From positions 1 through 25,380 of IMG/VR virus record IMGVR_UViG_3300035665_000223: a stretch of 25,380 nt of DNA; one strand, 5' to 3'. Source of the DNA: a virus. The notes below the pieces were generated by a model. It was not told the DNA's origin. It was given only the letters and a program-made list of their open reading frames with translations, and did not search any database. Below, piece after piece: positions 457 through 25,380 of this stretch (the first letter of the stretch is position 1; each line of letters opens with the position of its first letter). The position numbers were made by a program, and so were the translations under genes.

Positions 457-3400
457 TCAACCCGCTGGTAAAGCAATCGCTCTCATATCTTTAATTCTTG
501 GAACAATTCCAGTATTAGAACTAGACATTACAATCTTAATAGCAAAAGTTCTAAATGTTGTAAATGCTGTTCCTGCGGAAGTGTAAGATACAGAGTTGTT
601 TGCAATACCATTTACACCTGGTGCAAATGTTAATTCACGATCATCATTTTCATTTAATGATACAAAGTTTGCATTGCCCAGTTCTGTCATCAACTGATAA
701 CTCTTATCATCAAAAACTCCAGGATCAGATGCTGAAAGAATCTTGTAATAAACATAGATGTTAGTTCCCGCCGGTTTATTTGCAGTTACATAAACACGCA
801 AGTCACCAGAATCAAAACCATCAGCGAGAGTTACACGGCGAGTCATATATCGTGCCGTAGCGTTACCACCAGATTTCTCAGTTTCACCAATGTATGTTAC
901 AACAGCATTAGCACCGCCGCCAGATCCTGGTGTTAGTGTAATTGTTGGTGAACTTGTGTAACCAGAACCTGCGTTTGTGATGTATACTGCATTAACGGTA
1001 TTAGACACAACGTTTGCTACAGCTGTAGCACCAGAACCGCCGCCGCCTGAAATTGTAACTGTAATGTCTGCGGAGTTTGCGTAACCAGAACCAGTGTTAG
1101 AAACGACAACACCTGAGTTTGAAAGTCCAAGGTTGTTGATTTCATTTTCAATGGCTAAAAGAGCCATACGAGATACATCGATTACTGGTGAAACATCATT
1201 ACTTAGAGCAGTCATTGTGCCAACAAGAGTGAATGTGTTACTTGTTCCAGTTGTAGAGTTACCGGTATTGCTTAACTTTCTACCAACACCATCGTAAATT
1301 TCCAAATTCTTCAAAGGTGTGATTGAAGTTAACCCAGCAAAACCAGAACTGTCGGCTTTCTCAGAATTAAATTGATAACTTAATGATGTATTTGCAAGAA
1401 CAATATCTGATGTAATCAAATGCACAACTTCATAAGGAACAACAGTTGTTGGAGTAGAAACATGAAATTGAGCTGTAGCGGAACTTGTACTAAAACTACT
1501 ACGATACAATTGGAACATCATGTCTGAAGTTTGATCGGCAGTCCATGTTGATCCGTTTTGCGACAAGAACAATGATCCACCATAAGCTTGTTCAGATATT
1601 TGACGGCCGTTCACAATGTCTAACTTACCGATTTCAGCCACATAAATTTCATACTTGTTAGAGTTAGCAAGAACAACAAACGAATGTTCACCAGGTTGTA
1701 AATACACTGGCGAATCAAAAACAAATTCAGTATACTTACTAGAATCTGTCATGCTAGGACTTGCAGATACTTTAACTTTATCTGGAGTCAAAGAAACAGT
1801 TGAGAACGGATAAACAACAGAACTTGATGGGAATCCATTGACTGTTGGACGAAGTTGTAAAGTCACTGGTACAGTATCGTCTTTTGTTTTGAAGCACAAA
1901 CGAATCTTTGACAAGAATATGCCTTGAGGATATTGTTGTGGACTGACCAAGAATGTTTGTGCTAATGGATCTGCCCAATTGATCGGCGGCAGAGTCTGTA
2001 AAACTCTTGAAACTGAAGATTGGCTTGTAACCACACGATTATCGGTTACAGCGGTTCGTTGAACAACCGGAGATACAGTAGATATGATGACTTCTTCTTT
2101 AGTTTGCAACAAACCTTGTGCGAAGAATGAAGCATCGCCATTAGTAGAAGAACTTGGAATGTCGCCAGTCGAAGTATCAGTCAATCTAAATTGTTTTTCA
2201 CCAACTCGGAAAGTGCCACTAGGAATACTGAAAATACCAACAACTGAACCAGCTGGATCCGTTGTCAATCTGCCGATGCCATAATGTGAGGTTGTATCTG
2301 GGGTTGTTGTCCAAGTGCTAGAAATGTTCGCTACTCTTGTAGAAACATTATATGAAGTAATTGTTGCACTTTGACCAGCGCCTTTACCTTGTGTGATAAA
2401 GATTACTGAACCATTAATTGTATTTTGGTTGCTTGCGTTTTGTGCATCAATACGAAGTGTCACAGAACTAGAGGTAGCAGTATTTACAATACCGCCATTG
2501 TGTTCGTATGTTGCTACGTTGTATGTTAGTCCTGTTTGAGCACCGACCAATTGTAAATTAGCAGCATTTGCTGTGGCAAAATTAAACGAAGTGTTAATTG
2601 CCATGTTTGTAACATACACAATATTATTTGATGTATGGACAACAACAGCGTTTGCCACATTGACGCCAACACTCTTGTCTCTAATGTTTACGACTTCTGG
2701 ATTACTGTAGTTTACATTAAATCCAATGTTGTTTGAAGTTAGATAATATTTGTTAACACGATCACCAACATAATTTTCTACAGAAGTTTCGTCAAAGAAT
2801 GGATAAAGAGTGGTGCTTGGTTTGAAATCAGTGCCAACAAACAACACATTGATGCTTCTCATAAACGGAATAATAGAAACATCTACAACACGATCACCAA
2901 TTGACTGTGTTATTGTATTAGGCACAACTCTTGAGACTATGCCACTTCTTGTTTGTGATTGTGTAGTTGTAGTGGTTGTGGTTTCCACCAAACTTCTACC
3001 AATCCAACCCTCACCAACAGTTGTATTAGTTCCTGTCCAAATAGTTTGCCAAGAATTCCATTCTAGATTTACTGGAAGTCTATCTGTAATTAATTGCCAA
3101 GCATCTCTGTCACCGCCAACATTTACTAAAACATCAGACTGATGGTTTTCGTCAACCCAAATATCCGAAGATGGACTCAACTTCATCTTACCAAGATAGT
3201 TAATCACATTAAAAGGATTAACATTGACGGACTTAGAAGCTTTAGATTGATCTACAAGTAGCGATGAAGTAGCATTAGCAGTTACTAATGAACCTGTTCT
3301 AGTAAAGTTAGTAGAGTTTGCAGAATCAAAAACTAAGGAATGTGGTGTAATTGTAAAAGATGGACGAAGTTCTTTGTTTACAGTATCAATTGAAGCTGCA

Positions 3401-6400
3401 TAGTCTGAGTTTGTAACATCAGCTACAGCATGTCCTTTAAATGAATCAACAACAATGCCGTTTTTGAATCTTTCAACATTTTGACTATCAAGAATAGATA
3501 AATCTTGTTTAACAAGAGCTTCTTGCTCTAACAAACTCAATGAGGTATAATATTCTAAGTTTTCAATGCGTGATTCCAATTGACCAATATCACGCATTGT
3601 GTAACGGCGATGATTAATCTGTTGTATATTAACATCTTTTGTGTCTGACAAATACGGAGAATAACTTAGAATAAACAAAGTCATTCCAGTAGAAGAATCA
3701 TTTGGAGTAACAGGATTCAAAGATGGAATACCTTTAATTACTTCAAATTTTCTTGTTTTATCCAACACAACTTTGTCAATTCTAGCAAGATAATATTGAT
3801 AGTCGAGAATGATATCTGAACCATTTTCTGGTATTTTTGGACCAGTTGTAGTTGAAGACACATCAAAAGATACTGTACTTCCGCCGGAAGCAGTAGCATC
3901 AGAGCGTACTGGCCTAAAATCTAAACAATCCCTTAGATTGTATAGTGTATTATTTGTTGGTGAAGAATAAACTGGAATACTGCCATAAGCAATATCAGAG
4001 TATGAATCAACAGTAAAGAAACCTGGGCCAGATGATGTAAATCGATTAAAGAAAACAACCAATGGGCCTTGCGGCGCAGTTTGCCCAGCTTTTAACTTGA
4101 TCGATGAGTGATCATAGTATGAATCTCTTTGACCGTTATCGAATGTATATCTTGTCGTTACATTTGAAGCAAATGATGAGTTTGCTACAGTAATCGTATT
4201 ACCCGTAAAATCAAGTATACTCGTGACTTCAATCAAATCAGACATGAACAACGATTGAATTTCATTTGGTATCTTTTTAACATAAGAAGCCGCAATGTGG
4301 CATTGTCCGTTGGATGGATAAATCACAACAGCAGAATTGCCAAAAACATCAACGCCGCCAGTTGTTTGAATTGTTGTATTTGCGGCCACATATGTTTTTT
4401 GTTTCTTCGAAATTGTAGAAACATCAATTGTTGCAATAATGTTGGCGGTCATGTTCTGACCATTAGTCACAGTAATCTTATTTGTGCCAGTGTCTACAGA
4501 AAATTTGTCAGCAGGAATTACTTGACCAACAGAGTAACCTGAAGTGCCGGCTGCAGTAACGACAATATAATAGTTGGCCGATTTGGCAGCAGTTGAAGTT
4601 GCGGATGCAATATCTTCACCAGTTCCTAAAGTTAAAGCTGGCGAATCATTTGCAGTAAACGACTGTGAAGCATACAGTCTCTTGTATGAGAAAGAAAAAT
4701 CGGCAATGGTATTCTGTGCAATATATTCTTCACCAAGTTTAAAAATCAATGGCTCAAATGCAGCGTCTGATAAGAAAACATCTTCATATGTTGTTGCGGC
4801 ATCTTTAGAACGACTAGAAATATCAGCGGCAACAACTTTTGTTGTTGTACTAAAGTTAGCTAAAGATTCTACATCATTAAATTCAAAATCAATAGAAAAA
4901 ACTGAAGCGTTTGTTGGAGTTGTTACAAATGCAGGACTTACAGTAAGAGTTTGTGTTGAACCCACGAAGTCTGTAATAATTTTTGGTGCTTCATCAGATC
5001 CAGCGCCACTGGTAATTCGTAGTTTAGCACCAGTATATGCATCATTAACAGTAGAAAAAACTTGCCCGGCCCCGGTATTTCCAATTACAACAGTTGTTGA
5101 TGTAGCAGTATTTACTGTACCAGTGATTGAACCAACACTTACATCAAACAAGAATGAACGATAAGTGTATGTGCTTCCGTTTGATGTGTTGGAAGCGGAC
5201 TCATATGCCATTGACTTAACACGAGCAGTACCAATTTTTGTGTTGGTAATGGATGCAGTAGAAGTAACATTAATTGAAGCAGTGTTTACAACATGCAAAT
5301 CAATTGTCTGTAAACTATTAATTGGGAAAGAACCATAATGGTTTGTAGTGTAAACAAAATTGCCGTAATCTGCCGTAACTCTTTTATTCGAAATACTTGC
5401 AGTTGTTCTCGGTTTATCAATAATTAACTTTGATGGACCATTCGTTTCAAATTCATAACCATAAACATATGCTTTACCTGGCGATAAAGTAACTTCAGTT
5501 TGTGCAGTATTTGAAGAATTTGTATCTAATGAAATTCTAAAATCACGAACTGTGTAATTGCCAGACTCATCAAATGTTCTGCGAGCTAATGTATCTTCTA
5601 AAACAGAATAAATTGGGTATTTGTTTTCACGAATAATTTGACCGTTTTCGACTGTGGCCAATTCAATAAATTGTGTATCGTCAGTAGAAGATAAACTTCT
5701 TGTTGCTAAAACTAAGTTAATCTTATAACGATCAGAACCTGGCGCTTGATAATTTGAAGCGTTTTGTGCTGGGTCTAAAAGAGAGGTATCTGTGTTATTT
5801 GTGACGATTGATTCTGTAATTTCAAAACCAATACGAGCATTTGCTGTGGTATTGTCATATTTCGAAACGGCTACAGTTTGAGCATCGTTTTGAATAAAGA
5901 AACCATCATAGTAAAAAACGCCCTCATTGACCGAAAATATTTGGCCGGTACCGACACCAGAAGAAGAAATATTGGCAAACGAAGGAGAAGTCTCATCAGT
6001 TTTAATTGTTTCCGATGAGGTAAATGTTGATCCATAAAGTTGTTTCACCATCAAAGTGATTGGATCACCATTACCATTATTTGCAGGATAAACTTTAACG
6101 ACTTCAGCTCGTTTTGTTTCGTCTGAGGAAAATATTGTCATACCAACAAAATTGTTGGCATCAATATCTACACCGTTGTAAGATGTGTCTAGTTTTAAAT
6201 AAGTAGCGTCTTGCAAAAAGAACTGGCCGCCAGTAACAACCGAGCCATTTTTGAAAATATGGTCTCCAAAACGCTCAACTTGCTTTTGCAGAATTGTTTG
6301 TAACTGAGTTAATTCACGAGCCTGAACTGCAAAACCTGGTTTAAAAAGTAAACGAAGGTACTTTTTAGTTTCGTCAAAGTCATCATAATATGGATTGACA

Positions 6401-6423
6401 TTAAAATTGGTATTAAGAGCCAT
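457..6423 (-). CDS. Giant baseplate/tail structural protein, DUF4815 type, gp9/gp10 position
   Basis: A 1988-residue protein whose N-terminus ([20 protein letters not shown], then [20 protein letters not shown]) is the signature of the DUF4815 family of phage virion proteins. Around residue 935-960 is a helical stretch ([19 protein letters not shown]). Near residue 1150 a run of seven Thr precedes a segment ending in [16 protein letters not shown], and residues about 1480-1650 (WADPLAQTF, then [16 protein letters not shown]) form a beta-rich module typical of these proteins. Residues about 1775-1850 hold two Gly-Tyr rich repeats ([37 protein letters not shown]). The C-terminus ([22 protein letters not shown]) is a usual family ending. 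It follows gp8, where T4 has gp9, gp10 and gp11, so it probably forms the outer wedge and carries fibres; that role is inferred. A Shine-Dalgarno AGAGG lies five bases before the ATG. Confidence 0.85.
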
Positions 6424-13089: not shown

Positions 13090-15642
13090 TTAGGAGGTGA
13101 TGACTTTGGTCAATGTTCTTCTATGGTTGGTTCCGTCAAAGTTAATTGTATAGGTGTAAGATCCTGTATTTGTGATTGTAGTATTCGCAATCAATGAATA
13201 ACCATTTGGCAAAACAAATCCTGTTCCAGAAATATTAGGTCCAGAGTAAGTGTAAGCGGTATTTGGCTTGGCACCAAATACACGAATATCGAATGGCGAG
13301 TTTGTTACAATAATGTCAGGATTACTGTTCACAATTTCATTATACAGATTTGAATCATCAACAAGGCCACGATCAATACCAATTGTGATGGTTCTTTGTT
13401 GTCCGTCTTCTGTTGTTACCAAGAAGGTAGAAACATTTGGGAATTCAACCAGAGGTTTAACATTAGCATACCACAACACCGAATCATTCACATTTATTAC
13501 ATTTGGTGTGCTGGCCTGATACAACTGAACATTCATATGAGTATTGCTGTTTGTACTCAAAGAGTTGGTTGTTTCAATAACACTTACAATATTGAGTGAG
13601 TTGGCACTTAGGTTTCTAAATGTCCATTTTTCTGTGCCGGTTGCTGCAGGATCCACAATTGCATACGGACCATTAAACTCATTAATCATTGGCCTATTTG
13701 TAGAATTGCCAACATTTTGTGATATATCACCAGGTAACAATATACCGGCAGTCGACACGTTACTGTAACCCTTAACACGAATCTCAATGCCAGGATTAAT
13801 CGTAATCAATCCATAATCAACCGTATTTCCTGTTGTGAGACTTCTAAATTGAACAGAAACATTAAACGATTCTCCATTGGATATGGAGTTTGTTGGATCA
13901 TCAAGTACCGCAATTAAACTTGCACTGGAACCTCCAAGTGCCTGTACATTAAGAGTTGGCACTGAAGTATAAGCACCACGAGAAGTAATATTAACTGTAG
14001 TGATAGCGCCAGTAATTGAATTAACATTGGCACGAATTGTGGCAGCAATGTTATCTGTGCCGCCGCCGGTGATTACAACAACGCCATTGGAATAACCGGT
14101 GCCAGTGTTAGCAATTGTAACAGACTTAATACCCAATCGTTTTGTGGAATCGTCAACAATCACATCAACTTCTGAATTCAAGAAGTTAGAAACTGATTCT
14201 GCATTGGAGTAGTAGTACACATTATCAGAAATATTGGTGACTTGTATAATTCTTGTGCCAGACCAAACACCATTAAGTGTGTTGAAAATAATAGCGCCAG
14301 TATTAACATTGAGTGTGCTATCGCCAACTGTAACAGTTAATGTTTCTAAATTATATTTTTCAATATATTCATCCAATGTAAGTATTGGTGAAGTAGACTC
14401 TCCAGGTGTTACATCATTAGCCGTTGGTGGCGTGCCCTGGTCAAACACGGTTTGTATTAGAGTGTCAGTTGGTTCGGCATTCAAAACAATATTTTCCAAG
14501 TCTTCATCACTCGAAATAACTTTACCAGTTTTTTTGTTGTAAACAGTTACGAAACCATTTGGCGAAACAATCACTTGTTCTTCAAATGGTTTGGGATTGT
14601 CTGGTGTGTTGGCACTTTGTAAGAGTTTTTCCGTACCAACAAAATTATTAACCATAAAATTCTGAAACTCACCGCCATTATTCAGACTATCAAAACCTTC
14701 AAACTCATCAATTACGGCTTGGCTTTTTATCCAAAAATTCTCATCGTGTGTTCTTCGTGTTTCAAAAAGAATTTTTAAACCTTTTATTGTATCTGTAATC
14801 GTAGTTATTACGTTCGAAGACAAATTTGAAGTGTAAACGGCAACTTGACTTTCACCGGACATTACAGATTCTATAGTAATGCTATTTGCAATTAAACCAG
14901 GATATGGTGCAATAGTTGTATTATATGTTCCTAATTCTTGATCGGTAAACAAACTTGTCATTGAACCAATAATTGGTGCAGTATTCATAATGCCATCAGT
15001 TTGATAACAAATATAGAGAAGAACACGGCCAAGACTCATTACATCATCAAAATGTGGAAAATCAGCGATACTGTTTGCAGTTTCAGTTGGGCCTTGTGGC
15101 TTTTCAACATTAGATAAACGATTAGTGTGTCTTAAAAATTTTTCACCTTCGTCTAGAGCAAAATTTGCTTGATTGAAAACCTCTTCAAGATTGGTAACAT
15201 ATGTGTTACTTGTTACTGCAAAACCAGCTTCATAGTCAAAAGTTGTTACCGAAGCGACAAGAATTTTAGATTTAATTTGTTCTAACGCACTATTGATTGA
15301 CACAAGAACATCATTCAATGGGTTTTTATAATAATTACCCACATTTCCATTTCGCATGTCTTCAGCTTGCCAATCTTTGAGCAATCTAGGTATCGACTCT
15401 AAGTGTTTTTTAGCCGCATCTGATAACAAGAGAACGTTATCATCCGCAGGATCAAAATTAAATCCTAAACGGCCAAACACACTTGAAGTTGGCGAACTTG
15501 ATGGAAACTTGCGGTTTTGATTAGTATCTTCACGATTATCTGTCAAAAATTTAGACAAACTTGGCGGCGATGGATCACCAACAGCACCACCGCCGCCATT
15601 CATTTGTATACTAGTAAAACTATCTCTAGAACCTATAGCCAT
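13090..15642 (-). CDS. Large virion structural protein of unknown role between spike and gp25
   Basis: An 850-residue protein with no T4 counterpart that I can name. It opens MAIGSRDSFTSIQMNGGGGA, has a Pro/Ser/Asn-rich linker to about residue 55, then a mainly helical part (residues about 70-330; LLLSDAAKKHLESIPRLL, FNQANFALDEGEKFLRH, ADFPHFDDVMSLGRVLLYIC). The remainder is beta-rich: one Gly-Tyr rich module at about 505-580 (ANTGTGYSNGVVVITGGGTD, then SRGAYTSVPTLNV) and an Ig-like looking C-terminus (GSYTYTINFDGTNHRRTL). Its place in the hub-to-wedge operon and the module shared with gp6, gp8 and the DUF4815 protein indicate that it is part of the particle, probably the baseplate. Possible roles include a hub-to-wedge connector or a short fibre; nothing in the sequence decides. 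No strong Shine-Dalgarno is seen; the upstream stop is two bases away. Confidence 0.7.
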   Translation of the reverse strand: MAIGSRDSFTSIQMNGGGGAVGDPSPPSLSKFLTDNREDTNQNRKFPSSSPTSSVFGRLGFNFDPADDNVLLLSDAAKKHLESIPRLLKDWQAEDMRNGNVGNYYKNPLNDVLVSINSALEQIKSKILVASVTTFDYEAGFAVTSNTYVTNLEEVFNQANFALDEGEKFLRHTNRLSNVEKPQGPTETANSIADFPHFDDVMSLGRVLLYICYQTDGIMNTAPIIGSMTSLFTDQELGTYNTTIAPYPGLIANSITIESVMSGESQVAVYTSNLSSNVITTITDTIKGLKILFETRRTHDENFWIKSQAVIDEFEGFDSLNNGGEFQNFMVNNFVGTEKLLQSANTPDNPKPFEEQVIVSPNGFVTVYNKKTGKVISSDEDLENIVLNAEPTDTLIQTVFDQGTPPTANDVTPGESTSPILTLDEYIEKYNLETLTVTVGDSTLNVNTGAIIFNTLNGVWSGTRIIQVTNISDNVYYYSNAESVSNFLNSEVDVIVDDSTKRLGIKSVTIANTGTGYSNGVVVITGGGTDNIAATIRANVNSITGAITTVNITSRGAYTSVPTLNVQALGGSSASLIAVLDDPTNSISNGESFNVSVQFRSLTTGNTVDYGLITINPGIEIRVKGYSNVSTAGILLPGDISQNVGNSTNRPMINEFNGPYAIVDPAATGTEKWTFRNLSANSLNIVSVIETTNSLSTNSNTHMNVQLYQASTPNVINVNDSVLWYANVKPLVEFPNVSTFLVTTEDGQQRTITIGIDRGLVDDSNLYNEIVNSNPDIIVTNSPFDIRVFGAKPNTAYTYSGPNISGTGFVLPNGYSLIANTTITNTGSYTYTINFDGTNHRRTLTKVITS

Positions 15643-15644
15643 AA

Positions 15645-16466
15645 TTATTTCATTCTTGGAATTGGTGGTCCAGTTGGACCTTTAAAACTTGGATGCTTAT
15701 GTACATTATGTAGCGCTTTGTTTATAGAATCTGTCATCCAGGTCGCTTTCATTACACCAAAAGAACCCAACTTAGAAGACATGGAAACACCGGCAGTGAT
15801 TAAACCGATGCAATTTATAATTCCCGGTGTAGCTACAGGAACACCAATCGAAATACCACCAAGCACAGATACGAAGCCCAATGGACCAGCACTAACTCCT
15901 GTACCCGCATCAACTCTTGTTTTTGATGTAATAATATCGCCAATAATTTCACCACCAACAGTTAGATCACCAGTGATGTAGAGACTATCTCCAGCTGCAA
16001 GTTGCAATTGTCCCAAACCTGTTGATGTGCCGGCACCTACTAAAACATCTTCATCCGAAAGTAAACTTGCTTTTGTGTGTGAATATGCTACAAATTCGCC
16101 GTTTACTTCTAACTTATAATCGCCTTCAATTTTTTCTATTTTGTCGCCTTTGACATTGATAATCGAATCGCCATTGATAGTGACACTACATGTACCTTCA
16201 ATTAAAACATTTTTATCTTTGATTGTGATTTCGTAACCATCACCATAAACTTTGTGTACCTCATCACCATTTGGACCCATTTCAATGAAAGTGCCGGTTC
16301 GGTGTGTAACACGAATGCGCTCACGATTTGGTGTATCATCAAGTTCCACCAAATGACCTGATTCGGTCTGTATTGTTTTATTGTAAGGATATTTTGGCTG
16401 AGTGTCTTCGTTAGCCGCAGATTCTGGCTCTAACCAACCGTTATCTTCTTCTGGTTTTGTTGCCAT
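15645..16466 (-). CDS. Central spike beta-helix protein (gp5 C-terminal part as a separate gene)
   Basis: A 273-residue protein. After an acidic N-terminal tail (residues 1-25), residues 26-62 (YPYNKTIQTESGHLVELDDT, RVTHRTGTFIEM) match the region that leads into the spike in gp5/VgrG-like proteins. Residues 77-124 fall into six consecutive eight-residue repeats (GYEITIKD, KNVLIEGT, CSVTINGD, SIINVKGD, KIEKIEGD, YKLEVNGE), the octad pattern of the T4 gp5 triple-stranded beta-helix. More Gly-rich beta follows (ITGDLTVGGEIIGDI). The C-terminus carries H253 and an HKH motif (256-258) then GPTGPPIPRM, resembling the metal-binding spike tips of P2 gpV and phi92 gp138. The protein should trimerise into the membrane-piercing needle. 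Its ATG directly abuts the stop of the OB-fold gene, consistent with equal production of the two halves. Confidence 0.85.
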   Translation of the reverse strand: MATKPEEDNGWLEPESAANEDTQPKYPYNKTIQTESGHLVELDDTPNRERIRVTHRTGTFIEMGPNGDEVHKVYGDGYEITIKDKNVLIEGTCSVTINGDSIINVKGDKIEKIEGDYKLEVNGEFVAYSHTKASLLSDEDVLVGAGTSTGLGQLQLAAGDSLYITGDLTVGGEIIGDIITSKTRVDAGTGVSAGPLGFVSVLGGISIGVPVATPGIINCIGLITAGVSMSSKLGSFGVMKATWMTDSINKALHNVHKHPSFKGPTGPPIPRMK

Positions 16467-17579
16467 TTATATTGTTTGCCCCATTGTATTTGCAGACATT
16501 ACATTTCGATTATATATTGTTGTGCCAGTAGTTGTCAAAGCATTCACATGACCTTTAAGTTGTCTTTCAACAGCACTGAGATCAGAATCACTTGAAGGAT
16601 TAACTAGAGCACCAATAAATTGCCCCGGCATAGAAACAAGTTTACCAGTTTCATTCAAAAGACCTCTTGCAGCGCCACTAATTTCGTTAAAAGATTTTTG
16701 AAGTTCGGAAAAAGCACCAGATGATGCACCAACAATTGGTTTCACAAAAAGGTCAGTAAAACCTTGAGCTAATGCAGCTAAAAACTTTGTTATACACTCA
16801 GTTAAAAACTTTCTAGCTCTTTCTGGCAAACTTAAAATGTAATCGATCACAGCACGAATTGTTTGAGCAACTTTAACTAAAGTAACTATTTGTTCATTTA
16901 TTTCTCGTATAGCCGCAGTCACCTTTTTCAAAAGTCGAGTAACTTCTTTTGCAATTTGTGTAAAATATGAAGCTGTGCCTGAAGGATCAAATCCAAGCGC
17001 AGCTAATATAGCTCGTATTGCAGCTCTAATTGCTTCTAAAACTTGTCCAAATTGTCCTTTTATATAGGCTACTGATTTTGTAACCTCTGGAGTAATATCG
17101 CAAATGTGTGATCGTCTTTGATTTGTAGCATCAATTACAGTGCCTGCAACTGAACCCTCTGAACGAGCTACAATCGGCGTGATGGGTTGGCCAACTTCAC
17201 GACCATCCCACGGCGTTTGTGGCACTTCATCCGGTCCACCTTTTTTGATTGTAATGTTTTGATAAAGTGTTCTTGATTGGACACTTTCAATACCTGGAAA
17301 AATTCCCATAACCACAGGAATTTGTGCGACTTCACCATCTTGGAAGAAACCAATCACCCAATCACCAATTCTAGGCGGAACTGTAGTGTTCGAACCAGTT
17401 ACTGGCAACATCAATTGCGCCCAAGGCAAACTCTCTGTTGGAACTAAATTCGTATCTTCACTATGAACGCCAATAATTCGAACACGAACTGATCCCAATT
17501 TGAGTGGGTCTTCGTCATCTTCTACTGCACCAACCCACCAAATGAAACCTTTTTTGCCGTAAAAATCGTTTGTCAACAT
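16467..17579 (-). CDS. Baseplate hub protein with gp5-type OB-fold and long helical tail, no lysozyme domain
   Basis: A 370-residue protein. Residues about 10-105 (GFIWWVGAVEDDEDPLKLGS, VRVRIIGVHSE, LPWAQLMLPVTG, PRIGDWVIGFFQDGE, IPVVMGIFPGI) are the OB-fold of gp5/VgrG-type hub proteins. Residues about 165-330 are mostly amphipathic helix (QFGQVLEAIRAAIRAILAAL, AKEVTRLLKKVTAAIREINE, LPERARKFLTECITKFLAAL). T4 gp5 is OB-fold, lysozyme and beta-helix in one 575-residue chain; here the lysozyme is missing, helices take its place, and the beta-helix is the next gene. The OB-fold would sit on the gp27-like ring encoded just upstream. Start chosen because the ATG lies one base after the upstream stop and MLTNDFYGKKG begins the fold without an extra leader. 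Confidence 0.85.
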   Translation of the reverse strand: MLTNDFYGKKGFIWWVGAVEDDEDPLKLGSVRVRIIGVHSEDTNLVPTESLPWAQLMLPVTGSNTTVPPRIGDWVIGFFQDGEVAQIPVVMGIFPGIESVQSRTLYQNITIKKGGPDEVPQTPWDGREVGQPITPIVARSEGSVAGTVIDATNQRRSHICDITPEVTKSVAYIKGQFGQVLEAIRAAIRAILAALGFDPSGTASYFTQIAKEVTRLLKKVTAAIREINEQIVTLVKVAQTIRAVIDYILSLPERARKFLTECITKFLAALAQGFTDLFVKPIVGASSGAFSELQKSFNEISGAARGLLNETGKLVSMPGQFIGALVNPSSDSDLSAVERQLKGHVNALTTTGTTIYNRNVMSANTMGQTI

Positions 17580-21243: not shown

Positions 21244-21822
21244 ATGGCTTATTTACTCGACCGTATTAAAAGTTCCCTTGCAAAAGAAGGTTTGAACACT
21301 CGCACTAATCAGGCACGAGCATGGCTACGTGCCAAAATACCCACACTGAAGCCCACTCGGCAAGCACTTTTTGCGGATCGACAAAGATTAAAAAATAATG
21401 CCATAATTGGTCGTATGTACTTTTACTTTTACGATCCAAAAACGAAAGATAAGTTGCCATATTACGACAGGTTCCCACTGGTCTTACCCATAGAACAATA
21501 TGACGATGGATTTTTAGGGTTGAATTTACATTATATTCACCCAAGGCAACGTATCGTTCTCTTGGATAAATTGAGTGAATTTGCAAACAATGATAAGTTT
21601 GATAAGACAACAAAACTTAGATTGACCTATGATTTACTTTCACGAGCAAGTAAGATTTATGAAGTTAAACCTTGTATTAAACGATACTTGTTCAATCATG
21701 TCGAATCCAGGTTTTTAGAAATTAGCGCTGATGAGTGGGACATTGCCGCTTTGTTGCCAATGGAATCATTCGCTAAAGCCTCAACAAGTAAAGTATACGC
21801 CGAATCTAGAGAGAAATTTTAA
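21244..21822 (+). CDS. Uncharacterised 192-residue late protein
   Basis: Begins MAYLLDRIKSSLAKEGLNTR. The N-terminal 50 residues are basic and helical (ARAWLRAKIPTLKPTRQAL); the centre is aromatic-rich (GRMYFYFYDPKTKDKLPYYD, then FPLVLPIEQYDDGFLGLNLH and YIHPRQRIVLLDKL), and the C-terminal part contains KPCIKRYLFNHVESRFLEIS then DEWDIAALLPMESF. I have the impression of a family conserved in T4-like marine phages but cannot name it. It sits between gp4 and the gp54-like gene and overlaps the latter by one base (TAATG), so a tail-assembly or head-tail joining role is likely. T4 gp28, a hub-assembly protein of similar size, is a possible counterpart on position only. No membrane segment or known catalytic motif is visible. 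Confidence 0.8.
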   Translation: MAYLLDRIKSSLAKEGLNTRTNQARAWLRAKIPTLKPTRQALFADRQRLKNNAIIGRMYFYFYDPKTKDKLPYYDRFPLVLPIEQYDDGFLGLNLHYIHPRQRIVLLDKLSEFANNDKFDKTTKLRLTYDLLSRASKIYEVKPCIKRYLFNHVESRFLEISADEWDIAALLPMESFAKASTSKVYAESREKF

Positions 21823-22598
21823 TGTCATTTTCACCACAAGCATTCTTATCTAATGTCAATGCCAAAGAAGGTTTTGCTAAACCCTCACGATTTGAAGTCA
21901 TTGTGCCAATTCCACAATACATTAATCAATTTGTTGGCAATTCATTTTTAGAAAAATTAGTAAACTTACCTAATGTTTTGGTGGCTGATATTACGGATAT
22001 TATTCGTGGCGGAACACAAGACGCTCAATCACGCAGCGACAATCCATCGTTGTCACGCTATCTAGCACTTCAATGTGAAAGTGCTGAACTGCCAGGTAAA
22101 ACATTGGTGACCGCAGACGCTAAGATTTATGGCCCAACTTTTAAAGTGCCATATCAAACACAATACAATGACACCACATTAAATTTTATTTGCACTAACG
22201 AATTCTATGAGCGTAAGTTGTTTGAAAAATGGACCGATTCTATTATGCCATCAGACACAAACAACTTGCGTTATCCAAAAGGCAATAACTCAAGATACTT
22301 AACAAACATCAAAATTATTCAGTACGATGAGTTTATTCGCCAAATTTATGCAGTTGAATTGATTGATGCTTTTCCAATTGGCATCGCTGCACAACCACTC
22401 GCATGGTCGGAAGAGGGTTTTCATCGCCTTTCTGTTCAGTTTGCATATCAACGATATAAAGTGCTCTTTAACGGCAACTATGACCTTGTTCAGGCTGCAG
22501 CTCAGCTATTCGGTGATGCGGTTGGAAGAAAACTCACAAATGTCACAGATAAATTATACAATCCAGCAGGAACATTGTTTGGAAGAATTTTTAACTAA
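21822..22598 (+). CDS. gp54: Tail-tube-fold protein, gp54-like baseplate tube initiator
   Basis: A 258-residue protein. The pattern LALQCESAELPGKTLVTADA followed by YGPTFKVPYQTQYNDTTLNF, LFEKWTDSIM, and a C-terminal IYAVELIDAFPIGIAAQPLA with FHRLSVQFAYQRYKVL is that of tail-tube beta-barrel proteins (gp19, gp54). N-terminal residues 1-30 (FLSNVNAKEGFAKPSRFEVI) also fit. T4 gp54 has 320 residues and starts polymerisation of the gp19 tube on gp48; being beside the hub genes and larger than the major tube protein (T4 gp19, 163 residues) favours gp54 over gp19. It starts in a TAATG overlap with the upstream gene, so coupled translation is expected. Confidence 0.75.
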   Translation: MSFSPQAFLSNVNAKEGFAKPSRFEVIVPIPQYINQFVGNSFLEKLVNLPNVLVADITDIIRGGTQDAQSRSDNPSLSRYLALQCESAELPGKTLVTADAKIYGPTFKVPYQTQYNDTTLNFICTNEFYERKLFEKWTDSIMPSDTNNLRYPKGNNSRYLTNIKIIQYDEFIRQIYAVELIDAFPIGIAAQPLAWSEEGFHRLSVQFAYQRYKVLFNGNYDLVQAAAQLFGDAVGRKLTNVTDKLYNPAGTLFGRIFN

Positions 22599-22610: not shown

Positions 22611-23339
22611 ATGGCTCTGCCAAAAATTGAAACGCCTGTCTATGAAACGAAACTAATATCTACAGGCAAAAAAGTAAAATTTAGGCCATTTCTCGTTAAA
22701 GAACAAAAACTTCTTTTGATGGCCTTAGAATCTAATGATCCAAAAGAAACAATTGGCATCGTAAAACAAATTCTCAATAATTGTTTAGTAACAAAAGTAA
22801 ATATAGATGAATTGCCATCATTTGATATTGAAAATCTATTTTTACATTTAAGAGCTAAATCTGTTGGCGAAACAATCACTCTCAGATATAATTGCAATAA
22901 CATTATTGAGAATGATAAAAAGTGTAATGGTTTGGTACAATTTGATTTGAATCTTTTAGAAATAGAACCAGTTAAAGAAACATCTCATACAAATAAAATA
23001 GAAATTACAAATAAACTTGGTGTGGTAATGAAATATCCAAGTTTTAATAGTATTGATGTTGATAATGTGACTGAAGAAAATCAAATGGAAAAAACAATTG
23101 AAATGATTGCAAAATGTATAGATTACATTTATGACGAAGAAACTCTTTTTTATGCTAAAGACTCCACAAAAGAAGAATTGATAGAATTTATTGAAAACTT
23201 ACAGCAAGACGATATGGAAAAAATTCAAAACTTTTTTTTAACGATGCCAAAAATTAAAAAAGAGTTAAATTTTAAATGTCCAAAATGTAAGTATGAAGAA
23301 AACTTGGTTGTAGAGGGTTTGCAAAATTTTTTCGTATAA
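22611..23339 (+). CDS. gp26: Baseplate hub assembly protein gp26 (T4_baseplate family)
   Basis: A 242-residue protein beginning MALPKIETPVYETKLISTGK, then KVKFRPFLVKEQKLLLMALE, the signature of the gp26 family (T4 gp26: 208 residues). Residues 45-110 include VKQILNNCLVTKVNIDELPS and FDIENLFLHLRAKSVGE. Two cysteine pairs, C95/C105 (NCNNI to KKCNG) and C223/C226 (KCPKCKY), could together bind one zinc. T4 gp26 is needed for hub assembly but is low or absent in the finished baseplate, so a chaperone role is likely. The last codons (CAA AAT TTT TTC GTA TAA) contain overlapping -1 slippery heptamers, and the -1 frame leads into the next gene, so a longer gp26-gp51 product of about 304 residues may also be made. 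Confidence 0.87.
   Translation: MALPKIETPVYETKLISTGKKVKFRPFLVKEQKLLLMALESNDPKETIGIVKQILNNCLVTKVNIDELPSFDIENLFLHLRAKSVGETITLRYNCNNIIENDKKCNGLVQFDLNLLEIEPVKETSHTNKIEITNKLGVVMKYPSFNSIDVDNVTEENQMEKTIEMIAKCIDYIYDEETLFYAKDSTKEELIEFIENLQQDDMEKIQNFFLTMPKIKKELNFKCPKCKYEENLVVEGLQNFFV
23324..23333 (+). other. Putative programmed -1 ribosomal frameshift site at the end of gp26
   Basis: Read in the gp26 frame, A AAT TTT (23324-23330) and T TTT TTC (23327-23333) both fit the X XXY YYZ slippery rule, two codons or fewer before the GTA and TAA codons. AGAGGG at 23312-23317 is Shine-Dalgarno-like and lies six bases upstream, as in bacterial frameshift cassettes such as dnaX. The -1 frame is open from 23297 to the gp51 stop at 23524. 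No strong downstream stem-loop is visible. Either slip gives the same protein: gp26 through F241, then RISLSHDNLM and the gp51 sequence. Confidence 0.55.
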
Positions 23340-23359
23340 GTCTTTCTCACGACAATTTG

Positions 23360-23524
23360 ATGAACTATTTTCAAACTAATTTTGCAATGATGCAACACCA
23401 CAAATATAGTTTGACTGAACTGGATAGTATGTTGCCGTGGGAAAGACAAATTTATGTAGACATGTTAGTTAAACATTTGGAAGAAGAAAAAGAAAGATTG
23501 AAAGCACAACAAAAGGCACGATAA
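23360..23524 (+). CDS. gp51: gp51-like hub assembly protein, or C-terminal extension of gp26 by frameshift
   Basis: From the ATG at 23360 it encodes 54 residues: MNYFQTNFAMMQHHKYSLTE, then LDSMLPWERQIYVDMLVKHL, ending in a charged helix (EEEKERLKAQQKAR). The 'HHKYSLTE-L-MLPWERQIY' pattern resembles the small protein after gp26 in T4-like marine phages, usually called gp51, the hub assembly catalyst of T4. It begins 20 bases after the gp26 stop with no Shine-Dalgarno, and its frame continues open upstream into the end of gp26 in the -1 register. It therefore may be made mainly as a gp26-gp51 fusion. Its stop overlaps the next start by one base (TAATG). Confidence 0.75.
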   Translation: MNYFQTNFAMMQHHKYSLTELDSMLPWERQIYVDMLVKHLEEEKERLKAQQKAR

Positions 23525-25380
23525 TGGCTACTAAAAAATCTAGACTAGCAGAAATTTATAAGTCGGAGAAAGCTCGAGGCGGTGGTGTTGCTTCAACACT
23601 AGGTAAACGAGCTCTAGAAAAAATAGATCCTCGACAATTTTTTAATCAATCAGGATTTTTAGCTACGGTTTTGCCTTCATTGTTCAAAGCTTATAGCGCT
23701 ACAGGCGGTACCGATACAAGTAAAATAACTATGACTCCAACAAAAGAGTCGATGGTTACGGAAGCCATGAATGTTAGAATGAATGATTTGGCTTCAAGAA
23801 TGAATGATGTTGCCGTCAATACACAACTAAGTGCGAAAAATTCTCTAGTGTTGCCGGCGATGGCCAGAGACATGAATTTGATGAGGCAAAATATCGCTAA
23901 GTTGGCCAAAGCTCAAGGTGTCAAACCAACATATAAAGCAGACATGTTTTTCAAAGGTGCTTCTGAAAGAGAAAAAGAATACGAGTCTAAGTTTGGAAAA
24001 GCAAAAGCAACAATGCCGACTGCATCACCAACAACTAAACCTGAAGAGAAGGGTGGACTGAGTGGCATTTTAGGATTTTTAGCACCTTTATTTGCACCTC
24101 TTTTGAAAATAGGATCAACAATTGTCGGTGCGATTACTAGCACTTTGAGTGGCTTAGGTGAATTTTTACTTAAAGGCATCACTTCTATTTTCAGCGTTGA
24201 CAACTTAATGAAAGCTTTAGGTTTGACCGGAAGTGTTTTAAAAGGTTTAATAAAAATGGTTGGGATGATAGTGACAAACCCAATATTTTTAGCAATTGCT
24301 GCGGCGGGTAGTTTATTCGCTCTCGCCAAAATGCTTCGTGAAGAATTTGATGAGAAAAAACAACGCTACATGGAACTTGCTACTAAGAAAAAAGAGCAAG
24401 GTGCTTTATCGCCAGAAGAGGAAGCTGAATTACAAAAATTAAACAGTACAAAGTTGCAACAGGCCGCAAGAGAAGAATTGGGTGGCTATGATCCTATCTT
24501 GAACAAAGTTACCAAAACAACAAGAGTTCAAGGCATCGTTGCTGAAACTGCAGCTGCTGGTGCATCACTTAGAGATGAAGCAGCAATTCAACTTAGAGAT
24601 GAATATGAACAAGCTGGCAAAAATCCGAATTTAATAACGAATGAAGAAATTGCAAAACGAGCAGACCAACTAAAACAATTGAGAACTCCAGTACCAGATG
24701 ATGGTTCTTTTGCTGCAGCTGAAGCAAGAAGATTTAGGCAGACTGAGGGTAGTGAAGGGAGAATGGCCAGACTAGGTGTTTCTCCAAGTCCAGTTGAGGG
24801 TGGCCGTGGCACAATTAATCCGCCGAATGTATCTCCAACACCAGTGAGTGGTGTGTTGGACTTAATTGCTTCTGGTGAGGCGATAAGCAAAGACCCATAT
24901 AACTCCATGAATCAAGGAACTCCAGGTGGAAAAATTTCTGGTTCTGGTGTATCAACCAATATTATTGGACAAAACCTTACAGACATGACCATTGGTGAAA
25001 TATTAAGTAGAGCACCAAATGCAAATGATAATGCTGAAGAGAGAAAACAAAAAGGCGCAGTATTCGCTGCAGGTCGTTATCAAATAATACCCAAAACATT
25101 ACAGGGTTTGGTCGACCAAGGTGTTGTGAGTAAAGATGAAAAGTTTACACCAGAAGTTCAAGATAGATTAGCTCTCAAATTGGTCGAACAGTCTGGTGCA
25201 ACAAAATCAATCAATGAGGGTGATTTAGAAAAAGCACAGTATCAACTATCAAAAGTTTGGGCTTCTTTGCCAGTGCCGGCGGGAATGATGTTGAAGAGTG
25301 GACAAGTTAGCACTGGTGTTGAATCATTTTATGGTGGTGCAAATAAAGCAAAAGAAGGATTAACTTTAGCTTCTCTACAG
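23524..25380 (+). CDS. Tape-measure/hub-like tail protein with lysozyme-like domain (runs off right edge)
   Basis: 619 codons are visible and the gene continues. Residues 1-165 are polar and helical. Residues about 178-272 are strongly hydrophobic (GILGFLAPLFAPLLKIGSTI, GEFLLKGITSIFSV, TNPIFLAIAAAGSLFALAKM), as in tape-measure proteins. Residues 273-415 are charged helix, then a Pro/Gly linker. From about residue 443 comes a lysozyme-like domain: VLDLIASGEAISKDPYNSMN, with E452 a candidate catalytic Glu, then MTIGEIL (488-494), AAGRYQIIPKTLQGLV (515-530) and FTPEVQDRLALKLV (541-554). The 'GRYQIIP-TL' element is typical of phage muramidase modules. Being directly after the gp26/gp51 chaperone-like pair suggests the tape-measure role held by gp29 in T4, but homology to gp29 is not visible. 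The enzyme would open peptidoglycan during injection. Confidence 0.68.
   Translation, partial: MATKKSRLAEIYKSEKARGGGVASTLGKRALEKIDPRQFFNQSGFLATVLPSLFKAYSATGGTDTSKITMTPTKESMVTEAMNVRMNDLASRMNDVAVNTQLSAKNSLVLPAMARDMNLMRQNIAKLAKAQGVKPTYKADMFFKGASEREKEYESKFGKAKATMPTASPTTKPEEKGGLSGILGFLAPLFAPLLKIGSTIVGAITSTLSGLGEFLLKGITSIFSVDNLMKALGLTGSVLKGLIKMVGMIVTNPIFLAIAAAGSLFALAKMLREEFDEKKQRYMELATKKKEQGALSPEEEAELQKLNSTKLQQAAREELGGYDPILNKVTKTTRVQGIVAETAAAGASLRDEAAIQLRDEYEQAGKNPNLITNEEIAKRADQLKQLRTPVPDDGSFAAAEARRFRQTEGSEGRMARLGVSPSPVEGGRGTINPPNVSPTPVSGVLDLIASGEAISKDPYNSMNQGTPGGKISGSGVSTNIIGQNLTDMTIGEILSRAPNANDNAEERKQKGAVFAAGRYQIIPKTLQGLVDQGVVSKDEKFTPEVQDRLALKLVEQSGATKSINEGDLEKAQYQLSKVWASLPVPAGMMLKSGQVSTGVESFYGGANKAKEGLTLASLQ

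Follow-up and report, generated by a model that had tools for sequence, protein, structure and literature searches.

gp26 and gp51 of T4-like phages as a tail-assembly-chaperone locus probably joined by a -1 frameshift

Hundreds of phage records annotate homologues of T4 gp26 and gp51 as a baseplate hub subunit and an assembly catalyst. In the DNA analysed here, a stretch of 25,380 nt from an IMG/VR virus record (hereafter the window) that represents a new Kyanoviridae/pelagiphage-like member, the sequence homologous to gp51 follows gp26 in the -1 frame. Are these two separate proteins, or two forms of one? A sequence-only reading had proposed a programmed -1 frameshift in the manner of lambda gpG/gpGT, and comparison with related loci supports that proposal. 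Very probably, the pair is a tail-assembly chaperone (TAC) locus, in which a -1 slip at UUU UUC would yield both a short protein (TAC-N) and a 304-aa fusion (TAC-NC). The features of the locus are collected in Table 1.

Table 1. Features of the gp26/gp51 locus and its neighbours, in window coordinates
Feature	Position	Strand	Basis
Tail-tube-like protein, directly 5′ of gp26	21822-22598	+	phrog_45 (E=5e-31), phrog_3629 (E=3e-25)
gp26 homologue, putative short chaperone form (TAC-N), 242 aa	22611-23339	+	PF12322 and phrog_150 profiles; AF2 model
SD-like candidate stimulator AGAGGG, ending 9 nt 5′ of the conserved heptamer	23312-23317	+	anti-SD energy, codon bias
Overlapping second heptamer A AAT TTT	23324-23330	+	in phase here; 19/91 loci
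Putative -1 slippery heptamer T TTT TTC (U_UUU_UUC)	23327-23333	+	91/91 non-redundant loci, in phase
gp51, putative C-terminal extension (TAC-C), -1 frame	23333-23524	+	phrog_634; phrog_150 columns 230-281
0-frame stop TAA, one codon past the heptamer	23337-23339	+	sequence
Tape-measure-like protein with lysozyme-like region, extending past the window end	23524-25380	+	phrog_90 (E=9e-24 over residues 429-602)

The identity of gp26 is clear from profile searches, with E=2.4e-64 and 217 bits against PF12322 (T4_baseplate, gp26; cut-off 24.5) and E=3.2e-70 against phrog_150. Its 3′ end (23322-23339) reads CAA AAT TTT TTC GTA TAA, exactly as had been described, with an open -1 frame spanning 23297-23524. 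In the window, the +1 frame ends 13 codons beyond the gp26 stop; in the loci examined for this frame, it closes within 3-19 codons. The -1 product matches phrog_634 (gp51, E=7e-29). It also matches columns 230-281 of phrog_150 (E=6e-7), the final 50 of gp26's own profile, which suggests that some phages carry both parts as one protein. The predicted fusion in the window comprises 241 + 63 = 304 aa. The window's own IMG/VR record, which consists of the 25 kb contig alone, contains only one gp26.

The pair stands between a tail-tube-like gene and a tape-measure-like gene, the order tube-TAC-TMP. The ATG of the latter gene overlaps the gp51 stop. Its assignment as a tape measure, and with it the claimed position of the pair just before such a gene, is indirect: besides its profile match, the protein has two hydrophobic segments, placed much as in relatives, and the gene at the homologous position in phage OC matches tape-measure PHROGs at 4e-8. 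A T4 gp5-like protein is split elsewhere in the window (15648-17579, minus strand), where one ORF matches columns 14-115 of the gp5 profile and another matches columns 327-449. These two ORFs lack the lysozyme middle and the tape-measure-like gene has a lysozyme-like region; the lysozyme may have moved. Also on the minus strand, the baseplate cluster includes an 850-aa protein (13093-15642) with no PHROG match at 1e-5, and a 1988-aa protein (457-6423) that matches phrog_358, of unknown function, adjoins the baseplate wedge genes.

For comparison, relatives of gp26 were taken from IMG/VR, with S-PM2 added, and 91 loci less than 90% identical were kept, many of them about 40% identical to the window. 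These loci share ancestry, so the p-values given below overstate their independence and are indicative only. An in-phase T TTT TTY is present at the end of gp26 in all 91 loci, as TTTTTTC in 70 and TTTTTTT in 21. It lies 0 to 3 codons ahead of the stop, with exactly one codon between Phe-Phe and the stop in 78 of the 91. The same heptamer is found in the cultured phages OC, Ps15, V07, S-PM2, Mosig, ACG-2014j and S-CRM01, and in two Schizotequatrovirus-like IMG/VR records (L150 and L151), which we take to be KVP40-like; Rhizobium phage I1_9 has T TTT TTG at its gp26 end. Within the window's 16 main genes, the T6 heptamer occurs at 5 of 8149 in-frame codon positions, and the only one at a gene end is the gp26 site. 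The sequence-only reading had pointed to two overlapping slippery heptamers. Both are indeed present and in X XXY YYZ phase in the window, but A AAT TTT is kept in only 19 of the 91 loci; it was rejected as the functional heptamer for that reason, and T TTT TTC is taken as the site under selection.

The candidate stimulator is also conserved. A GGAGGG or GAGGG ends 9-10 nt 5′ of the heptamer across loci. The spacing of six bases originally given for AGAGGG holds for A AAT TTT, and it is nine bases to T TTT TTC. When the duplex energy with the anti-SD tail of 16S rRNA is averaged over the 91 loci, there is one sharp peak, of -6.8 kcal/mol at -16..-8; the profile as a whole averages -0.7. At this site, 51 of 71 Glu-Gly pairs have GAG as the Glu codon, compared with 10 of 56 Glu-Gly pairs elsewhere (p=1e-9). 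The element was also considered as a start signal for gp51 and rejected in that role, because in all 91 loci the stretch from the element to the heptamer is free of -1 start codons. On the 3′ side, RNA just past the heptamer folds better than dinucleotide shuffles (mean z -1.17 at +12 versus -0.04 to -0.22 upstream), and z is near zero at most distant offsets. No consensus pairs that would mark a conserved downstream pseudoknot or stem emerged from gapless RNAalifold on about 90 loci. A structural stimulator 3′ of the site is possible. Individual strong hairpins do occur, as in S-PM2 (L024, ~3720-3760; -14 kcal/mol), a few bases past the slippery site, and in L054 and L096; they are weaker in most loci.

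In all 90 loci that include the downstream end, the -1 frame is open and encodes a conserved protein; stops in the -1 frame, or a conserved strong gp51 ribosome binding site, would have spoken against a frameshift, and neither was seen in these 90. The alignment of junctions that had been proposed as a check has thus come out with heptamer, upstream GAGGG and open -1 frame all conserved. In the record of Synechococcus phage ACG-2014j (L128:2017-2201), the gp51 extension is unannotated, yet encoded in the -1 frame.

Could gp51 nevertheless be a separate gene, with its own or coupled initiation just past the gp26 stop? Public records annotate it as its own CDS (in S-PM2, for example, from an ATG after the stop), and some loci have an ATG 3-5 codons past the start of the heptamer. 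However, the first -1 start codon is scattered from codon 3 to codon 34, and only 1 locus in 90 has an SD-like motif before it, in agreement with the earlier remark that gp51 lacks a ribosome binding site. Moreover, the conserved residues of the -1 frame (R/I/L, H, L, N, Y, NF) start right at the heptamer, ahead of any start codon. The earliest -1 start codons in the window, TTG 23357 and ATG 23360, both lie within conserved sequence, and the conserved stretch RISLSHDNL precedes or coincides with them. Separate initiation, which would also leave the invariant heptamer unexplained, is therefore very improbable, and gp51 appears to have no usable start of its own.

Two further explanations concern the T run itself. 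Slippage of RNA polymerase could make a fused message on a run of 6-7 T, but six T is short for such slippage, the run ends in C in 70 of the 91 loci, the X XXY YYZ phase is invariant, and an SD-like element at fixed spacing acts on ribosomes only; we consider this slightly less probable than a separate gp51. The least probable explanation is that the heptamer merely follows from AT-rich codon usage at a conserved Phe-Phe, with no frameshift at all. Phe-Phe is indeed invariant in the gp26 protein alignments, and 72% of Phe codons are TTT. Yet the codon ahead of Phe-Phe ends in T and the first Phe is TTT in 91 of 91 loci, while at the second Phe it is TTC that is over-used (77% of loci; elsewhere in these genes, TTC makes up 28% of Phe codons, p=8e-20). 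With the loci treated as independent, a condition that they do not satisfy, the gp26 genes' own codon usage gives a chance of ~10^-33 for 91 heptamers in 91 loci. Furthermore, T4-type phages keep the residues EFF as the non-slippery GAG TTC TTT.

The fold of gp26 is also consistent with a chaperone. An AlphaFold2 model (pLDDT 92) matches the solved structures 3fgx (Z 7.6), 3klu (Z 7.5), 2ob9 (Z 7.2) and 5ir0 (Z 5.6) over the N-terminal ~85-87 residues of gp26. All Z values are under 8, and the support comes from the gap to unrelated structures, the next of which has Z 2.3. We take 3klu (YqbN) and 3fgx to be relatives of phage TACs; the record of 2ob9 names the HK97 tail-assembly chaperone. With Foldseek, the match of the gp26 model to 2ob9 is weak (E 0.9, prob 0.75). 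There are no TACs among the Foldseek and VIA matches of a T4-type gp51 model, and a sequence search of the PDB gave zinc-finger chance matches only. The model comparison supports a TAC fold for gp26, shared with the HK97 chaperone and its kin. At the level of sequence, hhalign detected no similarity between gp26 and lambda gpG (prob 0.4%, E 0.15). Overall, those features of a TAC that could be tested were found here, which supports gp26/gp51 as the tail-assembly-chaperone locus of a T4-like phage.

The anatomy of the locus, its conservation and the fold of gp26 come directly from sequence and comparison. From these we infer that frameshifting occurs, as well as its efficiency and the binding partners of the products, as follows. 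The majority of ribosomes would end at 23337 and make gp26. A minority would stall at UUU UUC, aided by pairing between 16S rRNA and the upstream SD-like GAGGG, and perhaps also by structure in the RNA downstream. The two tRNA-Phe would then move back one base, from U UUU UUC to UUU UUU, and reading would resume at CGU 23333 and continue to 23522, giving the 304-aa TAC-NC. If the products act like lambda gpG/gpGT, the N part common to them would cover the tape-measure protein and the C part would bring in tail tube subunits, with both gone from the finished tail.

The T4-type phages serve as a natural control. In T4, genes 26 and 51 are on opposite strands, which rules out this frameshift in T4 itself. 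Both T4 proteins match PF12322 and phrog_150, and T4 gp51 covers the profile up to column 280, which indicates a gp26-like domain with an in-frame gp51 tail. The gp51 of the window aligns with the C-terminus of T4 gp51, and the junction in the latter aligns with the slip point. Judging from these alignments, T4 gp51 is the long form, with both parts fused in frame, and T4 gp26 the short form. In T4 and its close relatives gp26 ends in EFF, coded GAG TTC TTT or GAA TTC TTT, and in others the end diverges; the heptamer is missing from all 12 T4-type gp26 ends that could be read, and the codons TTC TTT would no longer slip. In a phylogenetic tree, T4-type gp26 and gp51 each form one clade (100/100), and together they fall on one side of a branch (86/72), as expected from one duplication, although this is not firm. 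In one T4-type IMG/VR record (L113:2501-3246), gp51 is broken, through either a sequencing error or a real disruption: near residue 120 there is a TAG stop, and the protein continues in another frame. Genes 26 and 51 of T4 are reportedly named in earlier work by Vladimirov and colleagues, which is also said to describe frameshifting in several other T4-like groups.

How does the locus compare with known systems? In the dnaX gene of E. coli, a -1 frameshift likewise has an SD-like sequence ~10 nt 5′ of a tandem-slip heptamer, but there the heptamer is A AAA AAG with a defined downstream stem-loop, whereas here it is U UUU UUC with no conserved stem. The slippery site of lambda, G GGA AAG, also differs from T TTT TTC in the window. 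Lambda gpG/gpGT resembles gp26/gp51 in having a short protein with an extension made by a -1 frameshift (mechanism: Atkins 2016, PMC5009743), encoded between the tail tube and tape measure genes, and differs in its family, PF06894 (Phage_TAC_2), which is not among the Pfam matches of gp26 (PF12322). T4 gp26 and gp51 are homologous proteins corresponding to N and N + C, and differ in being separate opposite-strand genes, with an in-frame fusion and no slippery site. The G-T frameshift has been described as conserved "except T4" (Atkins 2016, PMC5009743). The sequence-only reading knew of no demonstrated gp26-gp51 frameshift; there is a precedent for this gene family, reported by Vladimirov, Gautam and Davidson (2022, Virology 566:9-15) according to two later papers. 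PRFect (PMC10885494) cites that work for T4-like phages that have a short gene and a long fusion gene in place of a frameshift, and the phage Adele paper (PMC12846349) for poly-T frameshift signals within the TAC-N genes of T4-like phages. The gp26/gp51 locus described here is a well-supported further example of this published mechanism.

In the gp26 homologues of Ackermannviridae (L115, L118, L119, L121, L123, L132-L149), an open -1 frame likewise leads into a short conserved tail, FEIDL..MPWHL. Their gp26 ends read GAR ATT TTC ATY TAA (kutterviruses and kin) or CTT TTC / GTT TTT, not T TTT TTY. An alignment-based hunt for further Ackermannviridae loci offered no conserved stretch to use. On balance, we lean towards a picture in which the gp26/gp51 pair is expressed in three ways: by an SD-boosted shift at U_UUU_UUC in Kyanoviridae, Schizotequatrovirus and relatives; by a non-canonical -1 site (GAR AUU UUC AUY UAA) in Ackermannviridae; and by a single duplication with in-frame fusion in the T4-type phages.

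The evidence points to gp26 and gp51 being a single tail-assembly chaperone in two forms, and many records probably give gp51 an artefactual start codon. The two-form reading also agrees with Leiman 2010, where gp51 is described as essential although the T4 particle lacks it. The sequence-only reading had sought to explain the need for gp26 and gp51 in T4, and their scarcity there, by the frameshift itself; this does not apply to T4, with its separate short and long genes. The locus is also well suited to the study of an SD-stimulated -1 shift at U_UUU_UUC, and of how gene duplication can take the place of a frameshift.
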